DNA of 53,531 nt. Origin: an uncultured Gammaproteobacteria bacterium. Its GTDB lineage: Bacteria > Pseudomonadota > Gammaproteobacteria > Magnimaribacterales > Magnimaribacteraceae. Where the stretch lies: positions 1 to 53,531 of the forward strand of contig CAJWDT010000006.1 in NCBI GenBank assembly GCA_913031395.1, given 5' to 3'. Position 1 is the first letter of the stretch; every line of letters begins with the position of its first letter. The notes under the pieces were generated by a model, which was not told the origin of the DNA, ran no database searches, and saw only the letters and a list, made by a program, of their open reading frames with translations. Made by a program: the position numbers and the translations under genes. This document shows, in pieces, positions 17,252 to 20,589 of the stretch.

Positions 17252-17265
17252 AAATACTAGTATTT
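17252..17265. promoter_or_regulatory. 14-bp perfect palindrome next to a strong promoter
   Basis: AAATACTAGTATTT is a perfect palindrome. Its last two bases overlap the -35 hexamer TTGCAA (17264-17269) of the plus-strand promoter, and it lies 75 bases upstream of the divergent oxidoreductase start. That position suits an operator controlling one or both directions. The binding protein is unknown. Confidence 0.4.
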
Positions 17266-17292
17266 GCAAGTTTGAATAAGTTTGGTTAATAT
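17264..17292 (+). promoter_or_regulatory. Sigma-70-type promoter of the small-protein transcript
   Basis: TTGCAA (17264-17269), a spacer of exactly 17 bases, and TAATAT (17287-17292). Transcription would begin near 17299, giving a leader of about 136 bases before the ATG at 17435. This is one of the best consensus promoters in the window. Confidence 0.6.
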
Positions 17293-17301
17293 TTAATCAA
17301 T

Positions 17302-17419
17302 CGTTCATTCACTCTAAATGTAGCAGTGAACGGAAGTAGTCAATTGTGATGAAGGAACGCATCTTCGTTCATCCCGAAAGGGACGGAAGTAGGTGATAAT
17401 ACCGAAGGAACGCATCTTT
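17302..17419 (+). ncRNA. Tandem structured RNA leader (two copies of one motif)
   Basis: Two units, 17302-17365 and 17366-17419, share the order CGTTCA, hairpin, CGGAAGTAG, 11-base spacer, GAAGGAACGCATCTT. In each unit CGTTC can pair with GAACG (17302-17306 with 17355-17359; 17366-17370 with 17408-17412), closing a stem around the inner hairpin. The inner hairpins differ in sequence but both pair: TTCACT...AGTGAA (17308-17330) and TCCC-GAAA-GGGA (17372-17383). This is the pattern of a conserved fold, and it fits a tandem cis-regulatory RNA. GGA triplets recur in exposed positions, so binding by CsrA/RsmA is another possibility. I recognise no named riboswitch. Confidence 0.6.
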
Positions 17420-17434
17420 TTAACAGGAGATGTT

Positions 17435-17575
17435 ATGACTAAATATGAAGAAGCGCGGTCGATCAATCGCGTCGTAAGAAAATCCCTTAAGAAAGAACTT
17501 GGGCAACCAGTTTACAGAACTAGAAGATTTTATAATCTTCCTGCTTATGTAACTGACAACCCTTTTTATCCTTAA
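17435..17575 (+). CDS. Small basic protein of unknown function (46 aa)
   Basis: The ATG at 17435 has AGGAG 5 bases upstream (17425-17429), a strong site; a longer in-frame GTG version would run through the structured leader and is unlikely. The product is 46 residues, rich in Arg and Lys in the first two thirds ('RSINRVVRKSLKKELG', 'YRTRRFYN') and ending 'TDNPFYP'. There is no signal peptide or membrane helix. I do not recognise it. A strong promoter, a repeated structured leader, a good ribosome site and a hairpin after the stop all indicate a regulated, well expressed gene. RNA or ribosome binding is a guess from the charge. Confidence 0.6.
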   Translation: MTKYEEARSINRVVRKSLKKELGQPVYRTRRFYNLPAYVTDNPFYP

Positions 17576-17582
17576 GGACTTG

Positions 17583-17600
17583 GGGGGCCTATTGGTCCCC
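17583..17600 (+). terminator. Stem-loop after the small-protein gene
   Basis: GGGGGCC and GGTCCCC pair (one G-U) around a TATT loop, 8 bases after the stop codon. The downstream run (TAAACTTCTTTT) is only moderately T-rich, so this is a probable intrinsic terminator or a 3'-end stabilising hairpin. Confidence 0.55.
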
Positions 17601-17641
17601 TAAACTTCTTTTAGTAGGAATTATTTAAAAAGAAAGTGCTA

Positions 17642-17693
17642 GTCTGGGTGGACTCTCACCACCGACCTCACCTTTGCCAGAGGCTTTAAATCC
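17642..17693 (-). pseudogene. Degenerate 3'-half tRNA-Ile remnant
   Basis: Plus-strand bases 17642-17672 match 20518-20548 of the intact tRNA-Ile(GAT) in 29 of 31 positions, in the same orientation. The T-stem GGTGG/CCACC is kept, but the T-loop reads TGAGAGT and so lost the TTC core. Similarity weakens toward the anticodon arm, where the loop would read CTGGCAA, and the 5' acceptor strand cannot be found. It is therefore a partial, nonfunctional copy. Either a decayed tRNA gene or the distal repeat left by integration at the tRNA 3' end would explain it. Confidence 0.65.

Positions 17694-20511: not shown

Positions 20512-20589
<78 letters not shown>

Follow-up and report, generated by a model that had tools for sequence, protein, structure and literature searches.

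The locus lies in a 53,531-nucleotide stretch of DNA (the window) from a SAR86-type gammaproteobacterium. It holds a self-contained cassette consisting of a promoter, two aptamers almost certainly of the glutamine-I class, a predicted hairpin containing the Shine-Dalgarno (SD) sequence, a gene for a 46-amino-acid protein and a terminator (Table 1). An earlier reading of the letters alone (the sequence-only reading) had placed a tandem RNA motif here, in a leader of about 136 bases behind a very good promoter. The leader measures about 135 nt, with transcription expected to start at about 17299-17300, and it is followed by AGGAG and an ATG at 17435. The promoter is weaker than had been claimed, as TTGCAA-17-TAATAT agrees with the consensus at 8 of 12 positions by eye and was absent from the listing of a consensus scan that needs 9 of 12; its -10 region is retained in relatives. 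Just past the cassette is a diverged copy of the 3' half of tRNA-Ile(GAT), 2.9 kb from the intact gene, and the gene and its partial copy resemble attachment-site repeats. The position of the cassette relative to the neighbouring oxidoreductase gene varies among congeners.

Table 1. Features of the cassette and its surroundings in the window, with examples of the variant aptamer from other loci in the last row.
Feature	Coordinates	Strand	Basis or remark
Putative sigma-70 promoter TTGCAA-17-TAATAT	17264..17292	+	read from sequence
Putative glutamine-I riboswitch aptamer 1	17300..17363	+	RF01739, 54.8 bits
P1 of aptamer 1, CGTTC/GAACG	17302-17306/17355-17359	+	
Linchpin C of aptamer 1	17360	+	
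Putative glutamine-I riboswitch aptamer 2	17364..17416	+	RF01739, 62.5 bits
P1 of aptamer 2, CGTTC/GAACG	17366-17370/17408-17412	+	
GG within J2/3 of aptamer 2	17385-17386	+	
Linchpin C of aptamer 2	17413	+	
Expression platform, predicted SD-sequestering hairpin (17413-17420 with 17425-17432)	17413..17432	+	25/25 distinct tails
Shine-Dalgarno AGGAG, within the 3' strand of the hairpin	17425..17429	+	read from sequence
46-aa protein MTKYEEARSINRVVRKSLKKELGQPVYRTRRFYNLPAYVTDNPFYP, stop codon included	17435..17575	+	dN/dS, family alignments
Intrinsic terminator at the cassette end	17580..17603	+	predicted
Diverged copy of the tRNA-Ile(GAT) 3' half	17642..17683	-	86% over 42 bases
Intact tRNA-Ile(GAT)	20512..20589	-	
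Variant aptamer examples	L045:1863-1982, L062:1019-1155, L067:949-1079, L069:2313-2438, others	-, +, +, -	

The motif at 17302-17419 had been thought to resemble no named riboswitch. However, both of its units match the glutamine-I (glnA) family, RF01739, whose Rfam covariance model has a curated gathering score of 35 bits (E-values for the window are about 1e-9 for unit 1 and 1e-11 for unit 2), and because both units exceed that score the tandem motif is far beyond chance. A new riboswitch class is thereby ruled out, and on these matches there is hardly any doubt that the units are glutamine-I aptamers. The fixed blocks and outer stem that the sequence-only reading had recognised are present in both units and are the family consensus: the P1 stem CGTTC/GAACG, J2/3 CGGAAGTA and J3/1 GAAG, in a P1-P2-P3 three-way junction with the linchpin C after P1. 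The ligand-site nucleotides (P1 C1-G59, C58, the GG of J2/3 and linchpin C60, in the numbering of PMC6698751 and PMC11477058; ligand contacts are given in PMC6698751) are all found in both units. These are the only RF01739 matches above the cut-off in the source genome (1.08 Mb, 81% complete).

The inner hairpins differ between the units and still pair, as had been noticed: P2 is TTCACT..AGTGAA in unit 1 and TCCC..GGGA in unit 2, and P3 is GTCA..TGAT and GGT..ACC, respectively. Selection on the RNA fold, and the covarying pairs that it should leave in homologues, had been proposed from these two units, and both were found in a set of 133 different units, drawn from the genomes of relatives and from viral contigs and selected by their conserved flanks, not by their pairing. 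The three outer P3 pairs are formed in all 133 and co-vary, the first being GC in 84, AT in 25, GU in 22 and UA in 2, and P2, which is paired in nearly all of them, varies in the same compensated way. This supports a tandem cis-regulatory RNA under selection. Such tandem glutamine riboswitches are already known from the literature, where tandem glnA RNAs have been on record since 2010 (PMC2864571) and 157 doublets have been counted (PMC9481103).

The 46-aa protein has no meaningful relative in Pfam, PHROGs, NCBIfam or, searched with the family profile, the PDB. Alignments define a family whose members are about 45-56 aa long and have a basic helix at the N-terminus and a conserved tail, LPxY[IV]xxNP[FWY]Y, in which P-x-Y....N-P-x-Y is invariant. 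The dN/dS ratio is 0.21-0.24 between the gene and its counterparts in congeners, and its median is 0.23 over 47 viral pairs; the product is therefore a real protein under purifying selection. An AlphaFold2 model (pLDDT 79, pTM 0.40) has a helix at residues 3-22 and a short helix at 37-40, too little structure for comparing folds. No homology to DUF4278 was found: Pfam gave no match to this domain and hhalign against DUF4278-type proteins of SAR86 was negative; a YRG motif occurs within the family in a few viral members only. The same leader precedes other small proteins as well, which end in FFPYYL in other SAR86 families and in FFVPDYLK in some viruses.

Relatives of the protein occur in four congeners, in one of which the end of the contig truncates the gene. 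The gene is accessory, since only 5 of the 19 genomes of the genus, some of them incomplete, have it. The aptamer is more widespread. RF01739 scores above the cut-off in 59 of 151 genomes of the SAR86 order, so that glutamine riboswitches recur across this order despite the statement in a 2018 review that they are restricted to cyanobacteria (PMC6316151). Of 369 genomes sampled evenly from the class, three had RF01739, two of them from the SAR86 order, and our literature search found no paper naming SAR86 together with a glutamine riboswitch. Nitrogen-assimilation genes are among those 3' of the aptamer in the order, which include type-II and type-I glutamine synthetase (GS), glutamate synthase (GOGAT), TorF-like porin, TonB receptor, DUF4278 proteins and small basic proteins (names other than DUF4278 were read from the sequences). 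Outside the SAR86 order, two loci (L215 and L218) of a 1.1-Mb genome from another family of the class, G486, carry glutamine riboswitches before apparent genes for the large and small subunits of glutamate synthase.

A variant aptamer, in which P3 is replaced by a nearly invariant domain of about 80 nt (GGAAGATAGGAAAACCTCTTTCTT...AAGCAAGTACC...GGGAACGAGACCGAATATCT), precedes a 54-aa DUF4278-type protein with three YRG motifs in 42 of 203 SAR86-order genomes, and was not found in the source genome. The insert has no match to any other Rfam family, and its core is also present in seven viral contigs. It may provide the riboswitch with an additional, internal sensing domain.

A search by peptide only revealed at least 41 uncultured viral loci with a family member, some of them near duplicates. 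The glutamine aptamer lies upstream in all 41, mostly as two copies (the contig of L171 begins inside the aptamer), and the link between the motif and the 46-aa gene, left for checking by the sequence-only reading, is thus conserved. Some of these loci are clearly T4-like: near the gene, one 105-kb contig resembles the Pelagibacter phages Mosig and HTVC008M and T4-like cyanophages, and in another the gene adjoins capsid genes that read as T4-type. The cassette neighbours capsid, tail-fibre, clamp-loader or porin genes, and its position varies among contigs. ATAAATA, which forms the core of the T4-late promoter given as TATAAAT (PMC9004378), is present in 35 of 35 distinct viral upstream sequences, with 1.4 expected by shuffling, and in none of 15 bacterial ones. 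As the promoter motifs are carrier-specific, the riboswitch-gene unit stands behind expression signals that belong to its carrier, and a cassette common to SAR86 and phages with its promoters swapped appears to be new. In an isolate-phage collection we found no relative of the protein, the single weak match being an unrelated integrase. The marine T4-like phages Melnitz and Mosig (PMC9004378), which are related phages, carry the same aptamer class, which in the case of Mosig stands before a 51-aa ORF without recognisable similarity to the 46-aa family. Two cassette-bearing viral contigs also encode a TorF-like porin (L173:5669-6271(+) and L198:6239-6841(+)), 33-40% identical to the riboswitch-preceded porins of other SAR86-order genomes. 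Between the late motif and the first aptamer, 16 of the 35 viral leaders, e.g., those of L172, L177 and L204, have an extra TGTAAC...GTTACA-like hairpin.

The leader also suggests how glutamine might be coupled to translation. A predicted hairpin of 5-9 bp, starting directly 3' of P1, buries the SD in all 25 distinct leader tails. With the first eight bases shuffled it formed in a mean of 6.1 and a maximum of 14 of the 25 tails (2000 trials), a difference whose significance is overstated because related tails were counted as independent; more weight is carried by the compensatory forms of the hairpin (CATC/GATG, CATT/AATG and CAATC/GATTG). In the window, C17413 is both the first base of the hairpin and the linchpin nucleotide of aptamer 2, and the whole AGGAG lies inside the hairpin. 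In the glutamine-I structure, the ligand draws G23 of J2/3 into the base of P1, where it pairs with C60 just after P1 (PMC11477058). Because the first hairpin nucleotide is the one engaged in this ligand-dependent pair in the crystal structure, we infer a glutamine-driven translational switch that is probably ON. Glutamine on aptamer 2 would lead G17386 of J2/3 to pair with C17413, which would strip the hairpin of its closing pair, expose AGGAG and allow translation, and aptamer 1 would make the response steeper. By nearest-neighbour energies, loss of C17413 costs the hairpin just 2.4-2.9 kcal/mol; since the remaining 7-bp stem is still predicted to form and to be stable, pairing of the linchpin may by itself be too little to free the SD.

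That stability with C17413 blocked, together with the contiguity of the hairpin with P1, would also suit a switch of the opposite sign, in which P1, stabilised by glutamine, has the SD hairpin stacked coaxially on it and plentiful glutamine turns translation OFF, so that the small protein would serve under nitrogen shortage. Against such a switch, the first base of the hairpin is the linchpin C in every tail, and both types of glutamine riboswitch tested experimentally activate, type II as reported in PMC6698751 and glutamine riboswitches including gifB according to the 2018 review (PMC6316151), so that we consider an OFF switch unlikely. Control by CsrA/RsmA through the repeated GGA triplets, which the sequence-only reading had allowed for, is far less probable still. 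CsrA is present in 10 of 14 SAR86-order genomes, including four cassette-bearing congeners, but the GGA triplets belong to J2/3 and J3/1, conserved parts of the glutamine aptamer that make up its known ligand-binding junction, and one genome (G037, 97% complete) keeps the same leader type without detectable CsrA; for these reasons CsrA is unnecessary. An addition to any of these readings would be strand exchange, with GAACG of unit 1 pairing with CGTTC of unit 2 and both P1 stems broken in the absence of ligand, giving true cooperativity. The linker, 6-9 nt in every small-protein tandem leader, is short enough for such pairing, and the swapped state is predicted, ligand-free, at -34.1 kcal/mol vs. 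-27.7 for the two P1 stems. However, these energies are rough and leave out ligand and tertiary contacts, and covariation is uninformative because the ligand site fixes both strands; we think it improbable that exchange takes place.

As to the small protein, inhibition of glutamine synthetase or another nitrogen enzyme is the leading role suggested by analogy, and if the switch is ON, the chance that the protein restrains such an enzyme seems about even. When glutamine is plentiful, the protein would be made and would bind and restrain an enzyme of nitrogen assimilation, with glutamine synthetase as the prime candidate. The proposed action resembles that of cyanobacterial IF17, without evidence of homology; the 2018 review describes a glutamine riboswitch driving this GS inhibitor (PMC6316151). 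Glutamine synthetase-like genes are found in 13 of 14 SAR86-order genomes, PII also in 13 of 14, and GlnE in none of the 14 (completeness is 90% or more in eight; positive controls worked). The GS-like enzymes of SAR86 are of two kinds, a type-I-like one of 467 aa and a type-II-like one of 323 aa. The absence of GlnE fits a GS-inhibitor role and, as SAR86 genomes keep PII, nitrogen sensing does not depend on the riboswitch element alone. Taken as a whole, a glutamine-ON cassette whose small protein restrains a nitrogen-assimilation enzyme is the best explanation that we can offer, and we hold it tentatively. Nearly as likely is a glutamine-ON switch whose protein has a late-infection phage function unrelated to GS, such as host takeover or particle assembly, and was co-opted by SAR86. 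The T4-late motif confined to the viral copies and their structural, clamp-loader or porin neighbours speak for it; however, a virion or takeover role leaves the constant glutamine gating unexplained, as well as the retention in SAR86 under a bacterial promoter and purifying selection, and we regard it as rather doubtful.

Like the gifB/IF17 system, the cassette has a small-protein gene whose leader contains a glutamine aptamer, and no GlnE was found in the SAR86-order genomes checked. It differs in that the 46-aa family has no profile similarity to the DUF4278-type proteins of SAR86, and GS binding here is a proposal only. Like glutamine-I RNAs described before, it has tandem copies and, in related genomes, nitrogen-related genes; unlike them, it resides in SAR86 and viral contigs and not in cyanobacteria, and its SD hairpin begins at the linchpin C, before an undescribed small protein. 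Downstream-peptide (glutamine-II, RF01704) RNAs are alike in ligand and in the short unknown ORFs at their 3' side, but theirs is a pseudoknot aptamer of picocyanobacteria with another architecture.

The RNA class itself is already known; what appears to be new is a specific model of the expression platform of a glutamine-I aptamer, in which the linchpin-C hairpin would link aptamer and ribosome site in a simple way, and an undescribed small-protein family consistently linked to this aptamer. SAR86 are among the most abundant bacteria of the surface ocean, and the genomes checked have glutamine synthetase without GlnE, which bears on how they control nitrogen assimilation. These results raise the possibility, which we consider speculative and not the likeliest outcome, that: a mobile cassette common to marine phages and SAR86 encodes a new class of glutamine-gated small proteins inhibiting nitrogen assimilation; and phages use it late in infection to steer the glutamine supply of the host. 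If so, the IF17 system would have a counterpart outside the cyanobacteria and in viruses. The cassette, which has a bacterial promoter in its bacterial copies and a viral promoter motif in its viral ones, is a concrete candidate for connecting phage infection with the glutamine of the cell.
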